Assembly (NCBI GenBank): GCA_004144345.1
Contig: SEEL01000004.1
Location: forward strand, 1 to 64,000
DNA from: Hyphomicrobiales bacterium
GTDB lineage: Bacteria > Pseudomonadota > Alphaproteobacteria > Rhizobiales > Devosiaceae
Reading direction: 5' to 3'
Length of the DNA stretch: 64,000 nucleotides
The notes under the pieces are model-generated. The model was given only the letters and a program-made list of their open reading frames with translations. It was not told where the DNA came from and made no database searches. Every line of letters begins with the position of its first letter. Within the stretch, counting starts at the first letter, position 1. A program made the translations under genes and the position numbers. This document shows, in pieces, positions 13,372 to 24,496 of this stretch.

Positions 13372-13456
13372 GCCCTGGTGGCGGAATTGGTAGACGCGCA
13401 CGGTTCAGGTCCGTGTGTTTAACGACGTGGAGGTTCGAGTCCTCTCCAGGGCACCA
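13372..13456 (+). tRNA. tRNA-Leu(CAG)
   Basis: The gene is 85 bases including an encoded CCA. The acceptor stem GCCCTGG pairs with CCAGGGC, the discriminator is A (required for Leu), the anticodon arm CACGG-TTCAGGT-CCGTG reads CAG, and a long class II variable arm and a GGTTCGAGTCC T-arm follow. Its 3' end from the T-arm to two bases past CCA is the attachment site of the element that follows. Confidence 0.97.
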
Positions 13457-13458
13457 TC
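13438..13458 (+). repeat. attL core (inside tRNA-Leu 3' end)
   Basis: This 21-bp sequence, beginning AGTCCTCTCC and ending in CACCATC, is identical to 24476-24496. It covers the T-arm 3' strand, acceptor stem and CCA, so integration leaves a complete tRNA next to the integrase. Confidence 0.93.
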
Positions 13459-13554
13459 ACTCAGCGAACTGGCTGACCCCGTTGAGCTTATTGAGATTGC
13501 TGAGGTTTTTGCGCACCCGACTGTCACACACGGGTGTCACGCATGGTTTTCAGA

Positions 13555-15279
13555 ATGGCTAGGCCCACGCGCCGACAGGGCTCTACTTTCAGCCAGTTCA
13601 AGCAGCGCATTCCACGCGATATTCGCGCGATGGCCGTGGGGAAGACGTTCGTCGCTCCGGTCGGAGATACGCTCACATCGGTCAAGATAGGGCCGTCCAC
13701 CGAGGTCCTTCAGTTTTCCCTCCGCACACGCGACCCGGACCAGGCGAAGGCGCGACAGGCGGTCGTGCTGTCGCACTGGGCAAGCTTCCTCGAAGCTCTT
13801 CGGCACGGCCCGCGGCGGCTCACCCAAAAGGAGGTCGTTGCGCTGTCTGGAGAGGCTTACCGCGAGTTCGTGGCTGGCGCTGAGGACGACCCCGGCAACC
13901 GGGCTCGCTGGGAGTACGTGAGAGACTGGGTGCAACACACGTGGCCGATCTTCGCGCCGGGCGATGGTGCTGATGGCGCGTCTACGGGTCTGCCCTACCT
14001 GGACAGGGTTCTTGCCATGCACGGTCTGGTTGTCGACCTCGACAGCCGCAAACGACTTCACGATGAACTCGGACGCGTCCTCATGTTGGCCGCGGATCGT
14101 CTCAACTCAAACGCTCACGGAGACTATAGCGAGGACAAGAACCTCAACCGCTTCCCCGCTCTACGGTCAGCCACCGCCGATGTTCAACGGGTGCCAAAAG
14201 CGGGGGTCTCTTTGACCGGCCTTGTTGACGAGTGGTGGGGGGAGTCCAGTCGAACGGGCGCGGCGAAGCCAGCGACCCACCGGAACTATTCGGGTGCCAT
14301 AAGGACCTTCGTGAAGTTCCTCAAGCATGACGATGCAGCGCGCGTTAGGCCGACTGATGTTGTTGCGTTCAAGGACTTTCGGCTCGCGCATTCGTCGCCC
14401 AAGACTGGCAAGCCGCTCTCGCCCCGCACGGTCCACGACAACGACCTGGCGGCGCTAAAGAGCGTGTTTGCCTGGGCTGTTGAGAACCACAAAGTGTCTG
14501 CCAACCCGGCTCTCGGGATTAGGGTGAAGGGCGCGGGCAAACTAAAGGCCAAGCGGAGCAGCACGCCGAAGGGTTTCACTGACGACGAGGCAAGGGTCAT
14601 CCTCGCGGCGTGCAACAATGAGGTCAGACGGCCCGAAGAGGCGGTCCAGTCGTTCGCGCTGCGTCGCTGGGTGCCATGGGTGTTGGCTTATACCGGTGCG
14701 CGTGTGGGCGAGATCATCCAGCTTCGCAAGCAGGACGTTCAACGGAAGAGCGATCACTGGGTTCTCGTGATTACGCCTGAGGCAGGGACGGTGAAGACCG
14801 ACACGTCGCGCGAGGTTCCCATTCACCCACATCTGGTGGAGCTGGGGTTTGTCGATTTCGCAACGAGCGCCCCCGGGGAGCGCCTGTTCATCCATCCGAC
14901 GCACTCCAAGGCCGCGAGGGGTGGGGCTTCACCCAAGACGACGGCGCGGGGCAAACGGCTGCTCATGCCTCCCGGTAAACCTGAGGCCGTTGCCAGTGAT
15001 GGCACGGAGAGTGTCAGTGGAAGGGTGAAAGCCGGGGCCAATCGCCTGAGGGAGTTTGTCCACGGGATCATCCCCAATCTTTCGAGGCAACCGAACCATG
15101 CGTGGCGTCACCGGATGGAAACGGTGTGCCGCGATGTCGGCATCGACGGTTACTACCAGCGCATCTTCACCGGCCACTCGCTCAGAGACGAACACGAACG
15201 GTATGGAGAGCCCGCGGGTCTCTATCGTGAAATATGTCGGCTCCCGCGCTTCGAGATGCTCTCGCCACCCACCCTATAG
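13555..15279 (+). CDS. Tyrosine site-specific integrase
   Basis: This 574-residue recombinase has an N-terminal DNA-binding part, a SAM-like core-binding domain around residues 215-310 (LTGLVDEWW...TVHDNDLAALKSVFAWAVEN) and a C-terminal catalytic domain. The catalytic Arg is in YTGARVGEIIQLR, the His/Arg box is HAWRHRMETV, a second His is in FTGHSLRD, and the nucleophile Tyr is in HERYGEP. All are present, so it appears active. I chose ATG 13555 (MARPTRRQGS) because homologues start with MARPT-like sequence; GTG 13534 and ATG 13543 are alternatives. Confidence 0.92.
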   Translation: MARPTRRQGSTFSQFKQRIPRDIRAMAVGKTFVAPVGDTLTSVKIGPSTEVLQFSLRTRDPDQAKARQAVVLSHWASFLEALRHGPRRLTQKEVVALSGEAYREFVAGAEDDPGNRARWEYVRDWVQHTWPIFAPGDGADGASTGLPYLDRVLAMHGLVVDLDSRKRLHDELGRVLMLAADRLNSNAHGDYSEDKNLNRFPALRSATADVQRVPKAGVSLTGLVDEWWGESSRTGAAKPATHRNYSGAIRTFVKFLKHDDAARVRPTDVVAFKDFRLAHSSPKTGKPLSPRTVHDNDLAALKSVFAWAVENHKVSANPALGIRVKGAGKLKAKRSSTPKGFTDDEARVILAACNNEVRRPEEAVQSFALRRWVPWVLAYTGARVGEIIQLRKQDVQRKSDHWVLVITPEAGTVKTDTSREVPIHPHLVELGFVDFATSAPGERLFIHPTHSKAARGGASPKTTARGKRLLMPPGKPEAVASDGTESVSGRVKAGANRLREFVHGIIPNLSRQPNHAWRHRMETVCRDVGIDGYYQRIFTGHSLRDEHERYGEPAGLYREICRLPRFEMLSPPTL

Positions 15280-15744: not shown

Positions 15745-16368
15745 CTATACCTTCGCAAGGGGCAAGGGCGAGGGCGCTGTGCGTTCCTGGTTGAGTGCGA
15801 AGAGGCGGGCCAGGACTTCATCGTCGGCCAGATCGGCGGGCCAGCCGTAGGCGTTCGCCACGGCGGCATCGAGTGCCTTGTGTGCATGATCGAGCCATGC
15901 CGGTCGCTCGTTGTAGAGCTTGGTCAAGGTGCGCTTCTTGAGAACCTCCGCAGCCTCATCGTCCTTCGCGAGTACGCGGTCGGGAAACCCCGCGACGACC
16001 TCTGGTTCACGGCGCACGAGGTCAGCCGGGTTGAGCCAGTTCTCGCGCAGTTCGTTCAGCCTCTTCGCCGCTTCCGCAATCGCAATGGCTTCGGGGTTGG
16101 TCGCGTAGTTGACGGCGGGTATGTCGGGGGTCAGCCCAGCGGGAAACGGGAAGGTCTCGAAGCACGTCAGGCTGTTGTAGCGGCGCTGATTGCCCGCGCC
16201 CATGCGGTTGCCCATTGCGGTCGCCCAGAGTTCGTGATGGCTGGATTGCAGGATGCCGAACGCGGTGTCGTCGTCCCTCGGGAACACGATGAGGTTCTTG
16301 TCTGGAAGGATATGGATGGGGGAATGGAGCGGCGTACACTCCGCTACACGAGGTAACCCGAAGTCCGA
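15745..16368 (-). pseudogene. C-terminal remnant of an MmeI-like (type IIL/IIG) DNA methyltransferase
   Basis: An open frame of about 207 codons runs down from a TAG at 16369-16371 with no good start near its beginning; a GTG lies at 16287. The protein matches the tail of MmeI-type class I DNA methyltransferases: LIVFPRDDDTAFGILQSS, SHHELWATAMGNRMG, YNSLTCFETFPFP (target-recognition region) and the terminal helical part ALDAAVANAYGWPADLADDEVLARL. The SAM-binding and NPPY regions are absent. The element therefore once carried, or recombined with, a restriction-modification enzyme. Confidence 0.7.
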
Positions 16369-17003: not shown

Positions 17004-17633
17004 TCAACCGATTGGCACCCCACCCGGCACGGCGCGCTTGGAAAGGCGAGACAGCGTGGACCGGGAGCAACCAGTGGCCCGAAGGATGGTATTCCAACTC
17101 TGCCCTGCCGCCAGCATTTCCACGATCGCAGCGTTGCGCTCCGTGTCTTCGGGGCGACCCCGATAGACTCCGCGTCCTTTCGCACCGGCAATCCCCTCCG
17201 TCTGCCGACGGCGTCGATCCTCGTAATCCTTGCGGGCAATCGCGGCGAGCATGTCGAGCATCATACTGTTGATCGCGTCAAACATGCGCTCCGTGAACTC
17301 GTCTGCGGTAGTCGCCAGACGCCAAGACGTGGGCAGGTCAAGCGCGACGACACGCACCCTGCGGGCCCTCAGTTCGGCACATAGCCGGTCCCAGTCTACC
17401 CCGTTGAGACGGCTGAGGCGGTCGACCTGCTCGACTAGCAGCACGTCCCCCGGCTTGCTGTCTGATAGGAGGCGGAACAGCTCAGGGCGCTGAAGGGACG
17501 CGCCGCTCTCGTTCTCGACGTAAGTGGCGGCAATGGTAAGGCCCCGTTCCGCGGCGAAAACGTCAAGGGCGGCGCGGGCACGATTGGCGTCCTGCTCTTT
17601 GGTAGATGCTCGTAAGTAGGCGCGGATGAACAT
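17004..17633 (-). CDS. Serine recombinase (resolvase/invertase family)
   Basis: This 209-residue protein has an N-terminal resolvase domain with catalytic Ser10 in YLRASTKEQD, the conserved DVLLVEQVDRLSRL segment, the long E-helix and a C-terminal HTH (NTILRATGCSRSTLSRLSKR). Length and organisation match small resolvases and invertases. It sits inside the tRNA-Leu element and may resolve dimers, invert a segment or have brought in part of the cargo. Repeated GGTTCGTTT motifs upstream of its start could be its operator or crossover region. Confidence 0.9.
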   Translation of the reverse strand: MFIRAYLRASTKEQDANRARAALDVFAAERGLTIAATYVENESGASLQRPELFRLLSDSKPGDVLLVEQVDRLSRLNGVDWDRLCAELRARRVRVVALDLPTSWRLATTADEFTERMFDAINSMMLDMLAAIARKDYEDRRRRQTEGIAGAKGRGVYRGRPEDTERNAAIVEMLAAGQSWNTILRATGCSRSTLSRLSKRAVPGGVPIG

Positions 17634-17646
17634 GACCTAGACCATC

Positions 17647-17712
17647 GGTTCGTTTTGGATGGTCTGATAATACATGGTTCGTTTAGGGTGTCAAATCTCA
17701 TTTATCGAACCA
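17647..17712. repeat. GGTTCGTTT repeats upstream of the serine recombinase
   Basis: GGTTCGTTT occurs at 17647-17655 and 17676-17684 in direct orientation, and its inverted form ATCGAACCA lies at 17704-17712. All sit within 80 bases upstream of the recombinase start. Such a cluster could be a resolvase binding (res-like) site or an autoregulatory operator. Confidence 0.5.
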
Positions 17713-17772: not shown

Positions 17773-18087
17773 CTAGAGGCTACTGAGGTTGAGTTTGATC
17801 GCTGCCCGGGCCTTTCCGCGAACTGAAAGCTGCCATTGATTTCTGGGGTTCCGCAGCATCCAGCCTTCGTCGACCAGTCGCCGTCGCGCGAACCGGACGA
17901 CGTTGGGCCACACTACGTCCCTACTGGCATTCGGACGACGTAGGTGGGTTGCGACCCAGCCCAACTCAAAGTGTTCGGCCAGCGCGTCGTATGCCTCTTG
18001 GGCGGTAATGGGTTTCCCGCGCGCTCCAAGTAGGCGGAGGAGTGCCCATTCCACGTCCGCCTGTGGCGGGAGCAGTTGTGTGGTCAC
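17773..18087 (-). CDS. Mrr N-terminal-like winged-helix protein, stand-alone
   Basis: This 104-residue protein starts at GTG 18087, six bases after a strong AAGGAGG. It matches the winged-helix domain found at the N-terminus of Mrr-type restriction endonucleases: ADVEWALLRLLGARGKPITAQEAYDALAEHF, then FARRRLVDEGWMLRNPRNQWQLSVRGKA. The nuclease domain is missing. Single Mrr-N proteins may be DNA-binding regulators or specificity partners. It is divergent from the nuclease-helicase cassette, so it could regulate it (inference). Confidence 0.7.
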   Translation of the reverse strand: MTTQLLPPQADVEWALLRLLGARGKPITAQEAYDALAEHFELGWVATHLRRPNASRDVVWPNVVRFARRRLVDEGWMLRNPRNQWQLSVRGKARAAIKLNLSSL

Positions 18088-18188
18088 GTGCCCTCCTTCG
18101 CTTAGGCCGCCTAGTATCCGCTGGTTCAGGCGACCAGCAAGCCCCTGGGGGCGGCTTTGACCCCGGGGTAACGGGGGCGTCGGCGTCT

Positions 18189-18246
18189 CGCTGTCCAGGA
18201 AATAGGCCCTCAAATCTGGATGCAACTTTTGACCCCGAGGTCCGAC
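18189..18246 (+). repeat. Left copy of about 58-bp direct repeat flanking the nuclease-helicase cassette
   Basis: This aligns without gaps with 20859-20908 over the first 50 bases or so (about 80% identity by eye). Shared blocks are CGCTGTCCA, AGGCCCTCAAATC and CTTTTGACCCC. The first copy lies in the divergent promoter region and the second just past the helicase gene, bracketing exactly the two-gene cassette. A shorter CTTTGACCCC echo lies near 18155. Confidence 0.75.
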
Positions 18247-18346
18247 CAGCGACGCCGTCAATACTTTGCCCTGCCGGACTACTCCCCACTAGACCCACCC
18301 TTGCCTCAATGTTGCGACAATGGTTCATTGCTCGGGGGGTAGAACA

Positions 18347-18793
18347 TTGCGCGCATTCAATTGTTGGGCAGGGGTTCTAGCCATTCTCTGGAACACCCCT
18401 ATGATTGCTGGCGTCGCCCTTGGTGACCAGTGGAAGGAAAGTGACTATCGAGACGCCCTCTGCGAAGGCATGAGAATGGAGGTTACACTCCCGAAGCAGA
18501 GCCGGGCCGATTGCGTAAGCGACACCCATGCGATCGAGGTCGAGTTTGACAACAAGTGGAAAGAGGCAGTTGGTCAGGCGCTTACTTATGCGCAGCAGAC
18601 CGAGCTTATCCCAGGTATCATCCTGATCTGTCGACGCGCAGAGTCCAAATGCCGGGACGCGTCCCTCTTCATCCAAGAGACATTCTTGGCGTACGGGATC
18701 GAAGCCACAATCTGGGAGTGTTCAGCGAGTGATCGCACCCTTGCGGACTGCGTTGAGAAGTGGGTCTGCAAGGGCGGCGGCTGTTCGGACTGA
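18347..18793 (+). CDS. PD-(D/E)XK nuclease-like small protein, partner of the helicase
   Basis: With a TTG start at 18347 behind GGGGGGT the protein has 148 residues; ATG 18320 (157 residues) has no ribosome site. After a hydrophobic N-terminus resembling a signal peptide (AGVLAILWNTPMIAGVALG) comes a restriction-endonuclease-like core: WKESDY, SRADCVSDTHAIEVEF with Asp and Glu at the usual PD...ExK-like positions, DNKWKEAVGQALTYA, then the strand PGIILICRR. It is Cys-rich. The family is uncharacterised as far as I know. Its stop is three bases from the helicase start, so the pair is co-translated. Confidence 0.7.
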   Translation: MRAFNCWAGVLAILWNTPMIAGVALGDQWKESDYRDALCEGMRMEVTLPKQSRADCVSDTHAIEVEFDNKWKEAVGQALTYAQQTELIPGIILICRRAESKCRDASLFIQETFLAYGIEATIWECSASDRTLADCVEKWVCKGGGCSD

Positions 18794-18796
18794 TTG

Positions 18797-20731
18797 ATGG
18801 ATCGACCTCACATCTCAGCCTCGATCGACGACCTTGAGACTGCACTCGAGGAGGCAACCTCCCATGCAAACAACGTGCGCCTTGATGAGATTGCGTTTGA
18901 GCTGACATTTAGGAAGACCTCGCGGGCAAGGGAGCTTGCCCTCCACCTTGGCGAGCTACGCGCCGCCTCCCGCGATAAGCCCATAAATACAGCCCCATCC
19001 CACAGCGCGCGAGGGACGGTCACGCGCGCCGCGGGCCCAGCCGCCACGACCGTTAAGCGGCGACCCACTGCTGAGCAGGAGGCGGCCATTGCGGCATTTC
19101 GCAACGGCGGGTCGACGAAGATCAATGCATATGCGGGGACAGGCAAGACCTCGACGCTTGAGCTAATCGCTCATGCCTCCCCGAAGAGCGGCCAGTACAT
19201 CGCATTCAATCGCAGCATAGTCGCGGAGGCAAAGGGGCGCTTTCCAACCTCAGTGAACTGCTCCACGACGCACGGCTTGGCATTTCGCGCTACCCCAACG
19301 GACCTCCGTACGAATAGCGGCAAGATGACCGGCAAAACTAGTTCTAACCAGCTCGCCGAAATCCTGGGACTGACTAAGCTCTGGCGCGTGGACAAAGACC
19401 ACAGTTTGCAACCACGGTCGCAAGCGTTTCTCATCCTAGATACGATCCGGCGGTTCGCGCAAAGCGCTGATGACGACATCTTGCCCAAGCACGTTCCCCA
19501 TCACGGCTCGCTTCTGACCGCGTCATTGGACACCCTTGGGGAGGTGGAGCGGTTCGCAGTGAAGGGGGCCAAGCACGTATGGGGACGCATGACGGACCAC
19601 GCCGACCTCGTACCGCTTGGACACGATGGCTACTTGAAGCTCTGGGCGCTTTCCCGTCCCCAAATCGCCAGCGACTTCATACTTCTCGATGAGGCTCAGG
19701 ACACCAATCCGGCAGTGCTAGAAGTGCTGCGTCAACAATCGTCCCAGCTCGTGTACGTTGGAGACCGGTACCAGCAAATCTACGAGTGGCGGGGCGCGGT
19801 AAATGCGATGGAGCAGATTGCGACCGAGGAGACAGTCCGACTGACGCTTTCATTCCGGTTCGGGAGAGGGATTGCGGACGCGGCTTCAAGGGTTCTGGCG
19901 GAGCTTGGGGAAGGGGTTCCTCTGACCGGAAATGCCGATCTGCAAAGCCGCGTCGGCCACTGCGAACCGAGGGCGATACTCGCACGGACAAACGCGTCAG
20001 CAATGACTGCATTAGTCGAGGCGCTGAACGATGGGCGGAAGCCACACCTCGTTGGAGGTAACCGCGAGATGATGGAGATGCTGCGGGGTGTCCAGGACCT
20101 CAAGGAAGGCAATCCCAGTACCGTCGCGGAGTTCTTCGGGTTCCAGAACTGGGACGAAGTAGTCAGGTTTACGGATACCCCTGAGGGCGAACACCTTCTG
20201 ACGTTCGTAAACCTCGTGCAGAGTAGAGGCGAGCGCCAGCTGATGTGGGCTCTCAACCGAACCGTCGAGGAAGAGGAGTGTGACCTCGTCATTTCCACCG
20301 CCCACAAGGCGAAGGGCCGTGAGTGGCGCACCGTCCGGCTGATGGATGACTTCCTCAAGTCACGACCAGCAAGGGTCAGCGACCCCGGGAGCAAACTCAA
20401 ACAGGAGCAGGATCGCGCCGCAGAGCTGCGACTGTTCTATGTGGCGCTCACGCGCGCCCGCGATGTGGTGGACATTCCCGATCCCCTTTTTGCGCAGTTC
20501 GGGCTGCACACGTCCGGTGCGCGTCAGGCCCCAGGGACCATCCCTCCGGCCAACGAGGGGAGAACGAAGCAACCCACTAGTCCGGCTCCAACAAAAACCG
20601 AGCCATGGGCTCCCCCGAGCAACTGGTCACCACCCCAGCGGGGTCCGCAACTGGTTCGCGAGACCCCTCCCGCGAAGGCAGCAAAACCGACCCCGAAGAA
20701 AGGGTTCTTCCGGCGGCTGTTTGACCTCTAG
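18797..20731 (+). CDS. UvrD/Rep-family (superfamily 1) DNA helicase
   Basis: This 644-residue protein has about 90 N-terminal residues of unknown function. SF1A motifs follow in order: PTAEQEAAI (Q-like), AYAGTGKTSTL (Walker A), a helical insertion, LLDEAQDTNP (Walker B), VGDRYQQIYEWRGA (motif III), TLSFRFG (motif IV), VISTAHKAKGREW (motif V) and RLFYVALTRARDV (motif VI). The C-terminus is Pro/Lys-rich and ends in GFFRRLFDL. All catalytic motifs are intact. Pairing with a nuclease-like gene recalls Gabija-type logic (nuclease plus UvrD), but the nuclease family is different. Confidence 0.9.
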   Translation: MDRPHISASIDDLETALEEATSHANNVRLDEIAFELTFRKTSRARELALHLGELRAASRDKPINTAPSHSARGTVTRAAGPAATTVKRRPTAEQEAAIAAFRNGGSTKINAYAGTGKTSTLELIAHASPKSGQYIAFNRSIVAEAKGRFPTSVNCSTTHGLAFRATPTDLRTNSGKMTGKTSSNQLAEILGLTKLWRVDKDHSLQPRSQAFLILDTIRRFAQSADDDILPKHVPHHGSLLTASLDTLGEVERFAVKGAKHVWGRMTDHADLVPLGHDGYLKLWALSRPQIASDFILLDEAQDTNPAVLEVLRQQSSQLVYVGDRYQQIYEWRGAVNAMEQIATEETVRLTLSFRFGRGIADAASRVLAELGEGVPLTGNADLQSRVGHCEPRAILARTNASAMTALVEALNDGRKPHLVGGNREMMEMLRGVQDLKEGNPSTVAEFFGFQNWDEVVRFTDTPEGEHLLTFVNLVQSRGERQLMWALNRTVEEEECDLVISTAHKAKGREWRTVRLMDDFLKSRPARVSDPGSKLKQEQDRAAELRLFYVALTRARDVVDIPDPLFAQFGLHTSGARQAPGTIPPANEGRTKQPTSPAPTKTEPWAPPSNWSPPQRGPQLVRETPPAKAAKPTPKKGFFRRLFDL

Positions 20732-20858
20732 TCGCAGTCGACCACGTGCCAGCTACGAGGGCCGCTCACTGGAAGGATGCCCAGGATCGCGGATCAGGTT
20801 TTCAGGTCCCGCCAAAGGTGTCCGGAGGTATGCTCTACGGGACAGCATGCTCTCGCGG

Positions 20859-20916
20859 CGCTGTCCAAGGCACAGGCCCTCAAATCCGGCTACAGCTTTT
20901 GACCCCTGGGCCGACG
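20859..20916 (+). repeat. Right copy of the cassette-flanking direct repeat
   Basis: This is the second copy of the element at 18189-18246, sharing CGCTGTCCA, AGGCCCTCAAATC and CTTTTGACCCC. It ends one base before the stop codon of the convergent protease gene. The two copies could be target or recombination sites through which the two-gene cassette entered the island. Confidence 0.75.
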
Positions 20917-22518
20917 CTAAAACTGGCTTAGCTTGAACTTGGCAAAATCCACGTCACCCCTGGCTTTCGGGTAGTAAGTCGCGCTGTCTGCTATCGGTGC
21001 GACCGAGCGCTGAAATATCCCGTTCTTGTCGTGAGAGTGCCAGGCGCAAAAGCCTGGAGCATTCAGGAACAGTACCGAGTCTGCGCCTTGGTTCTTGGCC
21101 GTCGCGTCGACGACGCTATGGGCTTGGATCCTTCTGTCGAACTGCGTTCTACCGGTCGTATCGTCAAGCGTTGCAAACTCCGTGACGTACACAAATCTCG
21201 GCGTCTCCAAATTGAGTATTACCTGCCGAACGGGGTTCGATAGCCTGTTTCTCAGGCCGCGCCTCTTATACTTCCATCCATAGGTAAGGTACGTCCGCGC
21301 GACCACCTCGTTCGCCGCCAGCTTGGCCACGAAATCGTCTCCAAGGGGAATGGAACCGCCGCCGAGCTTTGCCTGATGCTTCGCTTGAAAGGCTGGCCAG
21401 TCAGCGGCGTAAGACCGAAGGTTGGACCACGAAAGCGCCTCGGCCTTCTCCGCTGGCAAATAGACTTTGCCTGGCAAGGGTATGATCAGATAGCTCGCGT
21501 TCTCTTCAATCGTATAGTGAGCCTCGTTCAAGGCGCTGCCCTGTCGCAATCCAACCCGTATGTTCGGGCCAATCTGATCGTCGTTAACGTAGAGGGCCTC
21601 AAGGTACTCGGCACGGGTGGGATTGGGGGGAAACGCTGCGGGTGCTGTGAGACGAAAGACCTGGCCAGTCGCGACTACCGCGTGGCCGACAGGTTGGTTG
21701 GGAAAGGTTAGGCCGACTATCACTGGAATGCCGGAGTCAACGTAGCGGTTGATGATGTCGTAGGGTCTAACCGCTCCCCAGGCCTGAGGACTCGCTGCAT
21801 AGTAGATTAGCGGCTCTCGCCCGGCTGCGCGAAGTGCAGCGACCATGTTATTAACGGTCAGTGACTCAGATCCCGCTGGCAACATTAGGTTGGTATGGGC
21901 TTCTGACTGAGCCAAAGCAGCGCGCGTGATGGAAACGGTCGAAAGCCATGGACCGCGGTGGCGCTGGTGGAAATGACGCGCCGCAACCCAGATCGTAGCC
22001 TGTGCGCAAGCCCCAACCCTCGAGTCTTGTTGCGTCATCGGCACACCCTCGACGCTCAGCTCTGCGCCCCAGACGTGATAGGTGTGTTTGCTGCGAACGA
22101 GTAGGTACCCCTCGTGACTTGCTGGTGCGGGAGGGGCGGCAAGCAGCGCCTGGCTGACAGGTGCTTGAGAGATCGGCCTGAGTACCACCTGGCCCAAGAA
22201 GGAGGATGCTTCAAGCTTGTTCGACAGCTCTTCAGCATCGGCCGTCGCGTTCACGAAAGAGATGTCGTTCCCGAAGAACAGCAATCTAGTACAAAGCTTG
22301 GTATGCCGGCGGAAGGTCGTGGAGTAGTACGCGGAGTAGGCCTCGCTAAAGTCGCGATCGAGATAGTCGTCCTCGACCAACACCGACAGTGCGCCAAGCT
22401 CCCGGAGCCTGGTCACGATCATCCCCGCAATATGCGGATTGGCCTGATCGACGGCTAAGCGATCTTCAAGCTTCTTCCAGTCGGCGTTTGAGCCGAGCGA
22501 TAAATAGTTGAATGCCAT
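20917..22518 (-). CDS. Papain/C39-like cysteine peptidase of unknown family
   Basis: This 533-residue cytoplasmic-looking protein (no signal peptide) has a candidate catalytic triad in a papain-like arrangement: Cys171 in SRVGACAQATIWVAARHF at the start of a helix, His279 in GHAVVATG, and Asp313 or Asp314 in YVNDDQIGPN; Gln163/164 could form the oxyanion hole. About 160 residues precede the catalytic domain and about 200 follow, with no recognised fold. It is the second gene of a two-gene operon, 30 bases after the small acidic protein. The target is unknown. Misassignment to a non-catalytic member is possible. Confidence 0.65.
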   Translation of the reverse strand: MAFNYLSLGSNADWKKLEDRLAVDQANPHIAGMIVTRLRELGALSVLVEDDYLDRDFSEAYSAYYSTTFRRHTKLCTRLLFFGNDISFVNATADAEELSNKLEASSFLGQVVLRPISQAPVSQALLAAPPAPASHEGYLLVRSKHTYHVWGAELSVEGVPMTQQDSRVGACAQATIWVAARHFHQRHRGPWLSTVSITRAALAQSEAHTNLMLPAGSESLTVNNMVAALRAAGREPLIYYAASPQAWGAVRPYDIINRYVDSGIPVIVGLTFPNQPVGHAVVATGQVFRLTAPAAFPPNPTRAEYLEALYVNDDQIGPNIRVGLRQGSALNEAHYTIEENASYLIIPLPGKVYLPAEKAEALSWSNLRSYAADWPAFQAKHQAKLGGGSIPLGDDFVAKLAANEVVARTYLTYGWKYKRRGLRNRLSNPVRQVILNLETPRFVYVTEFATLDDTTGRTQFDRRIQAHSVVDATAKNQGADSVLFLNAPGFCAWHSHDKNGIFQRSVAPIADSATYYPKARGDVDFAKFKLSQF

Positions 22519-23105: not shown

Positions 23106-24323
23106 ATGCATACCATTCTCGAACGTCCAGTGGAAGAAAACTCGATGGCCATTCGCCCTACATTCTCGCCACCTCCCGGCCCCTTCACGGCCCCACCCTC
23201 AATACCCGTAATCATGGGGCCGAAGTTGATCCGGGCCGACGTGCCGATCGTAACGGGTTTCATTCCCGCCGGGGCACTGATCCCGAACAACTATGTGGTG
23301 CCCCACAGGGACCCGCGAACTAACAAGGGCTACCAGCGGTTGCCCCAAGAGACGCGCATTAACGAGCTTGCCGTGGATCTCCGAAAGGGGCGCGTCGACC
23401 TACCGACATCGATCCTCCTCAACATCCGCAACCGCGAGGCAAGGCGCGCATTCCAAGACGGCGTGCTGAACCTCTCGCCCCTAAGCGAAAGCGGCGTGAA
23501 GCTTGGATACGAGCCGAAGTTTTACGTTGTGGATGGTCAGCACCGCATTCTCGCACTCAAGCGGCTGATCGAAGAGTTCGAGGAGGAGAGGTGGTCCAAG
23601 TACGAAATTCCCTTCACCTGCATGTTGGGTGCAACCGAAGAGGAGGAGATGGATCAATTCTATATCGTCAACTCTAAAGCCAAATCGGTCCGTACCGATC
23701 TCGCCTACGAGCTTCTGTCTCAGCGGGCAAAGGACCCGGAGGTGATGGAGTCTCTTGTGGAGCGCGGGCGCGATTGGCAGGTGTTAGCGCAAAACATCGT
23801 CCATCAACTCGGGGAAAAGAGTCCGGTATGGCGCGGAAGGATCCGGTTCGCCGCCATGGAAAAGGGCGACACGGTCATGCCCTCTGCTTCGATGGTTTCC
23901 TCACTCAAGCAGGTCCTCGCCTCACCGTACTTCAAGGCCCTAGGCGAAGACCACCAGGTCAGCATTCTCGATGCATACTGGCGGGGTCTCCGGGACATCT
24001 TCCCCGAGGCTTTCGACGATGCGACCAATTTCTCTATTCAGAAGGGCATCGGCGTAACCGTATTGCACACGATCCTAACGCAGGTGGTCGAGATAGCACG
24101 GTCTGGCGGTCACTCAGTGACAGAGGCCGAGACGTACTCCAAGATCGTGCGGAAGGCCGTGGAGCAACTTGAAGGTGAGAACGCTTCGGGCGATCCGGTG
24201 AGCGGGCTCAACTTTTGGCGGGCCGCACCGCTGGGAGCGGCGGGCAGCTTCTCGAGCAGTGCCGGGCGGCGCGTTCTTATCGCCAAAATGCAGCAGCGGC
24301 TGCCCAAAATAAGCGTGCAGTGA
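23106..24323 (+). CDS. DGQHR-domain protein (DndB/DpdB-like)
   Basis: This 405-residue protein has the signature VVDGQHRILALKRLIEEF at residues 141-158, preceded by LPQETRINELAVDLRKGRVDLPTSILLNI as in ParB-like DGQHR proteins, and followed by QFYIVNSKAKSVRTDLAYELL. DGQHR proteins include DndB, the repressor of phosphorothioation genes, and DpdB of 7-deazaguanine DNA modification. No dnd or dpd partners are nearby, so this is an orphan. ATG 23106 is used; ATG 23145 is an alternative. It is divergent from the peptidase operon behind the repeat cluster. Confidence 0.85.
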   Translation: MHTILERPVEENSMAIRPTFSPPPGPFTAPPSIPVIMGPKLIRADVPIVTGFIPAGALIPNNYVVPHRDPRTNKGYQRLPQETRINELAVDLRKGRVDLPTSILLNIRNREARRAFQDGVLNLSPLSESGVKLGYEPKFYVVDGQHRILALKRLIEEFEEERWSKYEIPFTCMLGATEEEEMDQFYIVNSKAKSVRTDLAYELLSQRAKDPEVMESLVERGRDWQVLAQNIVHQLGEKSPVWRGRIRFAAMEKGDTVMPSASMVSSLKQVLASPYFKALGEDHQVSILDAYWRGLRDIFPEAFDDATNFSIQKGIGVTVLHTILTQVVEIARSGGHSVTEAETYSKIVRKAVEQLEGENASGDPVSGLNFWRAAPLGAAGSFSSSAGRRVLIAKMQQRLPKISVQ

Positions 24324-24475: not shown

Positions 24476-24496
24476 AGTCCTCTCCAGGGCACCATC
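24476..24496 (+). repeat. attR core
   Basis: This is a perfect copy of the 21-bp tRNA-Leu 3' end at 13438-13458. No other part of the tRNA is present here, as expected for the distal junction. A TTTTT run follows directly (24498-24502 area), probably the original tRNA terminator. Confidence 0.93.

Follow-up and report, generated by a model that had tools for sequence, protein, structure and literature searches.

A family of small proteins that look like exported DNA-cutting enzymes, found in bacterial viruses and in a tRNA-Leu island

The 64,000-nucleotide stretch analyzed here, referred to as the window, comprises positions 1 to 64,000 of contig SEEL01000004.1 from a Hyphomicrobiales bacterium of the Devosiaceae (assembly GCA_004144345.1). 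It includes an island of about 11 kb, inserted at a tRNA-Leu gene, in which an open reading frame (ORF) coding for a 157-amino acid protein (coordinates 18320..18793, + strand) is followed by the gene of a UvrD-type superfamily 1 helicase. The small protein, defined by its ORF, its predicted fold and a family alignment, belongs to what looks like an overlooked family of exported, DNA-cutting-like proteins carried by bacterial viruses. On the basis of the predicted model and the features of its N-terminus, it is highly probable that this protein is exported and has a PD-(D/E)XK fold. The small-protein gene and the helicase gene are very probably unrelated cargo rather than the components of a two-gene system.

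Fold, conserved residues and export of the small protein

An AlphaFold2 model of the window protein was obtained from an alignment of 56 sequences, with a mean predicted local distance difference test value of 88.6 and a predicted template modelling score of 0.78. This alignment, from which the residue counts given below were also taken, consists of the window protein and 55 of the 69 other loci, 14 duplicates, fragments and sequences with doubtful starts having been left out. The model shows a helix (residues 40-47), three strands (52-57, 61-66 and 70-76), a helix (77-94) and a strand (97-104), followed by another helix (108-124) and strand (129-135). The core is thus alpha-beta-beta-beta-alpha-beta, the topology of PD-(D/E)XK enzymes, which bears out the PD-(D/E)XK-like nature that an earlier note on this DNA had ascribed to the small protein.

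The PD-(D/E)XK superfamily takes in Hjc, YaeQ, MmcB-like proteins and phage nucleases. The family described here shares with it the order of strands and helices and the location of the acidic residues, with D64 in the second of the three strands and E73 in the third. It differs in having an aspartate or glutamate in place of the lysine of the ExK motif, a lysine six residues after E73, a signal peptide and a probable disulfide bond. The family core can be written as RxD...AIExDF..KW.EA.GQ...Y, preceded in most members by a hydrophobic start, and the window protein has E40, C48, E54, D64, C65, E73, E75, K79, Q86 and Y90. Among the 56 members, G85 and Q86 are invariant, D64 is found in 55, and E40, E73, K79 and Y90 are found in 54 each. 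The conserved K79, located at the start of the helix that follows the third strand, is a candidate for a relocated catalytic lysine in the predicted model.

When the model was compared by Foldseek with models of viral proteins, six matches were found at E ≤ 0.001 (4.9e-8 to 2.7e-4), among them giant-virus proteins named for a KilA-N domain. The latter include a similar domain (best E value among the entries so named, 1.5e-4; 17-21% identity) and differ by the additional KilA-N DNA-binding domain that their names indicate. Weaker matches, with E values of 0.016 and higher, carried the names endodeoxyribonuclease I, PD-(D/E)XK, MmcB-like and ERCC4. A sequence search of the solved structures returned matches at chance level only (E values of 0.8 and 1.5).

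The window protein matched no Pfam or NCBIfam family, and no PADLOC model at an E value better than 0.03. The same is largely the case for the family: of the 56 members at most three matched any Pfam family (E ≤ 0.1), two any NCBIfam family (E ≤ 0.1) and two any PHROG (E ≤ 0.01). The strongest of the library matches (4.6e-11), to a YHYH domain, concerned two members and a part additional to the family core. By reading of the sequences, L029 and L036 appear to have a YHYH-domain-like insert between the signal peptide and the nuclease core (NCBIfam YHYH_alt, 2 of 56 members). Two phage families of unknown function, phrog_5928 and phrog_6497, were matched weakly by one and two of the 56 members respectively (best E values 0.0094 and 0.0047), and phrog_5928 aligned with residues 53-107 of the window protein at an E value of 0.058; they are possible distant relatives, although the similarity is too weak to place the family there. 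Three weakly related proteins (E values from 9e-5 to 3e-6), from three genomes of one family within the same class, have retained RxDC and IE while the KW part is missing, and possibly define a sister family. A literature search, partial in coverage and no proof of unpublished status, found no paper that we recognized as describing the small-protein family.

The window protein includes a hydrophobic helix at about residues 9-24, and the earlier note had remarked on a signal-peptide-like N-terminus. This feature holds for the family as a whole: a hydrophobic N-terminus was found in 59 of 63 family loci, compared with 63 of 200 neighboring ORFs to which the same start rule was applied, and with 46 of 131 neighboring ORFs of 220 amino acids or less. 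The 63 loci are what remains of 74 after subtraction of two that have no start codon and nine duplicates; start codons were assigned by a simple hydropathy rule and the neighboring ORFs by a crude caller. A few members resemble lipoproteins by reading of the sequence (L089 and L098).

The cysteines of the family are distributed in pairs. C48 follows closely on the first core helix, and C65 is the residue next to the conserved D64; both are found in 41 of the 56 members, neither in 15, and a single one in none (Fisher test, 6e-14, with the members treated as unrelated). Allowing one column of tolerance in the alignment, a lone cysteine was found in one member (L048). Further cysteines, at positions 104, 111, 134 and 144, occur together in a subset of the members. 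Since C48 and C65 are gained and lost together, a disulfide bond between them is probable from the alignment, which in turn points to an oxidizing place outside the cytoplasm.

Carriage by phages and proposed function

A scan of genome contigs with the family alignment identified 34 loci, in records whose titles range from Devosia, Ensifer and other Hyphomicrobiales to Endozoicomonas, Opitutales, Saprospiraceae and Gastranaerophilales; a scan of genome contigs with the single window protein confirmed no relative. The family was also found in 8 of 50,697 phage records, where its members are annotated as hypothetical proteins, and in 35 viral contigs, eight of which were treated as duplicates. 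In the Nitratiruptor phage NrS-4 the gene adjoins that of a LexA-like repressor, and in NrS-3 it is three genes away from the repressor. In Dulem virus 31 it is located one small ORF after CI, in the Rhizobium phage RR1-A it neighbors the gene of a large serine recombinase, and in two viral contigs (L073 and L075) it is found between a repressor-like gene and an integrase gene. In total, a confirmed repressor, regulator or integrase gene was present within two to three genes at 9 of 32 non-duplicate phage loci. These lysogeny neighbors were picked by eye; ten were scanned, of which eight were confirmed by PHROGs and two that resemble helix-turn-helix proteins (L068 and L069) were not, and those of L101-L103 were taken from the annotation of the depositors. 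The tallies of neighbors by PHROG covered 103 of 119 on the phage side and 83 of 109 on the bacterial side. The small protein is a single-gene cargo in phages and has no constant partner.

From the features that could be computed, namely the fold, the conserved residues, the hydrophobic N-terminus, the pairing of the cysteines, the carriage by phages and, in the samples searched, the lack of association with the helicase gene, we infer catalysis, DNA as the substrate, the periplasm as the site of action and a function as a barrier. According to this model the small protein would be made with a signal peptide and cross the inner membrane, and, locked by the C48-C65 disulfide, would remain in the periplasm in readiness. 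DNA from phages or plasmids, or free DNA, is unpackaged and exposed while it crosses the envelope, and the protein would cut it in transit, before it reached the cytoplasm; the host chromosome, being in a different compartment, would escape. By carrying this single gene, temperate phages and islands could close their host to competitors, by superinfection exclusion or as a barrier to uptake. A barrier to incoming DNA is the function that fits best with an exported nuclease fold, the carriage by temperate phages and islands and the lack of a constant partner. We consider the chances to be even that this model is correct as a whole, catalysis and barrier function included.

Two known systems resemble the proposed one. 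Periplasmic or extracellular DNases encoded by Campylobacter prophages are reported to stop natural transformation (PMC3995785). As described there, these enzymes (CJIE1 dns and the CJIE2 and CJIE4 nucleases) are alike in being exported nucleases, each encoded by a single gene on an integrated element, that bar foreign DNA (PMC3995785). Compared by description, the small-protein family differs in having no Pfam nuclease family in any of its 56 members. In SNIPE, location is reported to separate self from phage DNA, which is cut at entry (PMC13190303). The protection of self DNA by location and the cutting at entry are therefore common to both, but SNIPE is an inner-membrane protein whose DUF4041 and GIY-YIG domains face the cytoplasm (PMC13190303), while the small protein has no Pfam domain, a topology of the PD-(D/E)XK type and a predicted action outside the cytoplasm.

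Several observations weigh against an active nuclease with this function. Position 75, the textbook site of the ExK lysine, is occupied by D or E in 56 of 56 members, and since K79, six residues after E73, is a mere candidate for its replacement, the enzyme may be inactive or unusual. Two Devosia genomes keep the gene and lose parts of the D/E/K set. The Foldseek comparison with the Protein Data Bank (PDB) gave no confident match (best E value 0.089), and most of the 50 PDB matches listed were to other folds, judged by name. Four of the 63 loci (L031, L068, L069 and L076) have no clear hydrophobic N-terminus with any of the starts tried. The family occurs rarely (in 7 of 349 genomes), and two different members used as queries found no match in 72,556 plasmid records. 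As for its carriage, at 23 of the 32 phage loci no lysogeny gene was confirmed in the vicinity, the counts lack a baseline from random phage genes, and one of the carriers is a 440-kb phage in which the gene is located beside ribonucleotide reductase genes.

The residues at the putative active site are also what bears on the possibility that the protein is exported and has the PD-(D/E)XK fold but is catalytically silent, binding DNA or a phage or envelope protein and, for example, blocking injection. The acidic residue that takes the place of the lysine at position 75 in every member agrees with such a role, as do the two members that lack E73 and K79, one of which also lacks D64. On the other hand D64, E73 and K79 are kept in 54 to 55 of the 56 members across distant bacteria and phages, a retention that points to catalysis, and we regard a silent protein as unlikely. 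The two exceptions, from Devosia (L025, 2872-3294, and L027, 4941-5369), have kept the hydrophobic N-terminus and the cysteines, L027 being the one that has lost D64 as well; these two are possibly silent paralogues that have a different role.

An exported nuclease could also serve another use, such as obtaining food from extracellular DNA, the control of biofilms, the handling of lysates or an antibacterial toxin. The evidence of fold and export is the same for these functions, and some of the phage loci are near structural or lysis-side genes and not repressors. However, the repressor or integrase genes near 9 of the 32 phage loci suggest expression in the lysogen, and no immunity-like partner, which a toxin would need, was found among the 25 most frequent neighbor families listed per tally (of 103 and of 80), so that a use of this kind seems rather unlikely. 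Returning to the barrier model, we propose tentatively, and with less confidence than the model itself, that these proteins constitute a family not modeled by the curated libraries searched: periplasmic nucleases of the PD-(D/E)XK type, carried by phages and islands, locked by a disulfide and provided with a relocated catalytic lysine, which destroy phage or other DNA in transit and so carry out a one-gene, compartment-based exclusion. If this proposal is correct, temperate phages would carry a minimal one-gene immunity by compartment, that is, the principle of SNIPE moved to the periplasm. The alignment also provides a testable set of residues for this widely scattered family, the phage members of which bear no annotation beyond hypothetical protein.

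The small protein and the helicase as separate cargo

The 644-amino acid helicase (18797..20731, + strand) has the UvrD domains recognized by Pfam, and its reading frame has no stop codon from TTG 18794 or ATG 18797 to 20731. The stop codon of the small ORF is separated from the helicase ATG by three bases, TTG. The ORF map, the Pfam domains and the predicted fold therefore agree with the earlier description of an intact UvrD-family helicase gene three bases away from a small PD-(D/E)XK-like gene. The G+C content is 56.3% for the small gene and 60.7% for the helicase gene, compared to 65-66% for the flanking chromosome.

The earlier note had proposed that the two genes form one system, possibly antiphage. 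In Gabija, GajA is an OLD-family nuclease encoded beside a helicase, and one reading of the pair is a Gabija-like two-component defense, in which the helicase would sense or unwind DNA and the nuclease would cut it. The genes have the same orientation and the short spacing just described, a single pair of repeats brackets both of them, the island holds other defense-like genes, and the helicase matches the PADLOC GajB models (best E value 4.7e-16). The resemblance to Gabija consists of a UvrD-like helicase next to a nuclease; unlike in Gabija the pair is not conserved, no GajA-like OLD protein was seen, and the small protein has 157 amino acids and one PD-(D/E)XK-like domain. The difference from Gabija that had been claimed for this pair is thus upheld, as it also is by the lack of a Pfam family for the small protein and of a PADLOC match better than the one given above.

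Co-occurrence elsewhere had been set beforehand as the refuting test for the two-gene proposal. Three genome samples, which overlap in part and all include the window's own genome, were searched with cut-offs of E 1e-3 for the small protein and 1e-20 for the helicase; in each genome scoring was confined to a few best candidates (three or six for the helicase), so that some copies may be missed. Among 201 genomes of relatives the small protein was found in nine and the helicase in two; among 337 genomes of the class, in four and one (the own genome), respectively; and among 349 genomes of the phylum, in seven and ten. In all three samples the only genome with both genes was that of the window.

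Nor were the genes neighbors elsewhere. By tblastn no helicase was found in the flanks of 74, and then 80, small-protein loci outside the window; of 72 such loci, 57 are flanked by 1 kb or more on each side. Conversely, the small-protein profile had no match in 21 helicase loci, 12 of which (L014 and L113-L123, from the genome searches) were covered with flanks of up to about 1.5 kb; the same profile did detect the locus of the window and each of nine control loci, the window being counted among these nine as well. In addition, an exported nuclease and a cytoplasmic helicase would act in different compartments, and the phage helicase family phrog_1967, the best PHROG match, fits the helicase far better than the GajB models (E value 1.1e-97). 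The two-gene reading along the lines of Gabija is therefore largely refuted, a joint defense of this kind being very improbable, and a tempting but wrong nuclease-plus-helicase defense system can be removed from the list.

The surroundings of the helicase in other replicons are in agreement with this. Its closest plasmid relatives, with 50-64% identity, are encoded by Mesorhizobium, Rhizobium, Bradyrhizobium and Roseomonas plasmids, and their neighbors within about 5 kb mostly differ, with SIR2, Shedu, HNH or methyltransferase genes; two Mesorhizobium plasmids have a common RelE/CopG pair upstream of the helicase gene, and one plasmid record has no annotation. More distant relatives are located beside conjugation genes and in phages; a single-protein scan of viral sequences with the helicase confirmed none. 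Judged by these similarities the helicase is an accessory gene of plasmids and phages, and its UvrD-type product would serve such elements as an accessory helicase in the cytoplasm, independently of the small protein. Because the two genes share no other genome or locus in the samples searched, the neighbors of the helicase mostly differ elsewhere and phrog_1967 fits it well, the pair looks like a local juxtaposition within one integrative island.

Direct repeats and organization of the island

Both genes are flanked by two copies of an imperfect direct repeat of about 58 bp, located at 18189..18246 and 20859..20915 (+ strand). Pairwise alignment showed identity in 47 of 58 columns, with a 48-nucleotide ungapped core (18189-18236 and 20859-20906) that is 83% identical, and the local score of 59 exceeded all those obtained from 1000 dinucleotide shuffles of both flanks (maximum 34). 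The repeats reported earlier are thus real, they are in direct orientation, and they stand at the borders of a segment with the small gene and the helicase gene between them: the left copy ends 73 bases before ATG 18320, and the right copy begins 127 bases after the helicase stop codon. A common genomic repeat was considered and ruled out, as the 4.1-Mb assembly, in 132 contigs, has the repeat in these two places only (E ≤ 0.001).

The suggestion that the cassette moves as a unit found less support, since the search turned up no second cassette for comparison. If the repeat pair marked a site-specific mobile cassette, the nearby serine recombinase (209 amino acids, resolvase-like by Pfam, 17004..17633, − strand) could act on the repeats; its gene is 555 bases to the left of the left copy, and the direct orientation and the fit of the repeat borders to the two genes are as this would require. 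However, no third copy was found in the own genome, and a search of 151 genomes with a short pattern of the repeat found, besides the window, one match with two mismatches in one of the 150 other genomes. There was no match better than E 0.1 in plasmid records, none in phage records, and none in viral contigs, which were searched with an exact pattern. A different short repeat, moreover, is found immediately before the recombinase gene, and a mobile cassette of this type is quite unlikely. Direct repeats of at least 30 nucleotides were not found in 6-kb stretches around six plasmid homologues of the helicase. The idea that the repeat is an IS21-like terminal repeat or a resolvase site was rejected, as no supporting match was found in genomes, plasmids, phages or viral contigs; hairpin folding was no better than that of shuffles (z of 0.24 and −0.69).

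The left copy overlaps the start of the ORF of an Mrr_N (winged-helix) protein (Pfam; 17773..18261, − strand), the true start of which may fall inside the ORF, and the right copy lies just past the stop codon of the gene of a 533-amino acid protein that has no family (20917..22518, − strand), both genes being on the same strand. Removal of the cassette and one copy of the repeat would make these two genes adjoin, which suggests that a single insertion probably left the repeats as its scar, with a duplicated target or attachment site.

Two shorter sequences were noted in this region. The 64-kb window has three copies of the word TTTGACCC, all on the + strand, at 18156, 18228 and 20898: each copy of the repeat includes one, and the third is found 33 bases before the left copy begins. 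Immediately before the serine recombinase gene (17640-17710) there are two copies of the motif GGTTCGTTT, with GGTTCG in inverted orientation nearby; this stretch is unlike the 58-bp repeat and is possibly the recombination site of the recombinase itself.

The island is the mobile setting of both genes. Its insertion site is the tRNA-Leu (CAG) gene (13372..13456, + strand), which is adjoined by the gene of the tyrosine integrase of the island (13534..15279, + strand, identified by Pfam), and its limits are 21-bp attachment repeats. The left one (13438..13458, + strand) consists of the 3' end of the tRNA-Leu gene plus two bases, and the right one (24476..24496, + strand), 11,038 bases away, is identical to it in 21 of 21 positions. 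The location inside a tRNA island, as first proposed, is in this way confirmed.

Other genes of the island deserve mention. A relative of the 533-amino acid protein, with 30% identity, is encoded by a Mesorhizobium plasmid (L124, 4001-5554), where its gene adjoins genes of the ThiF family and of a multiubiquitin-domain protein, hinting at a link with bacterial ubiquitin-like systems by the neighbors of this relative. Near the right end of the island there is a gene for a DGQHR-domain, DpdB-like protein (23106-24323, + strand), and no Dpd or Dnd partner was found for it among the island proteins scanned. Finally, a fragment at 15745-16287 (− strand) matches type IIG restriction enzymes of the MmeI type in their C-terminal part and is likely a remnant.

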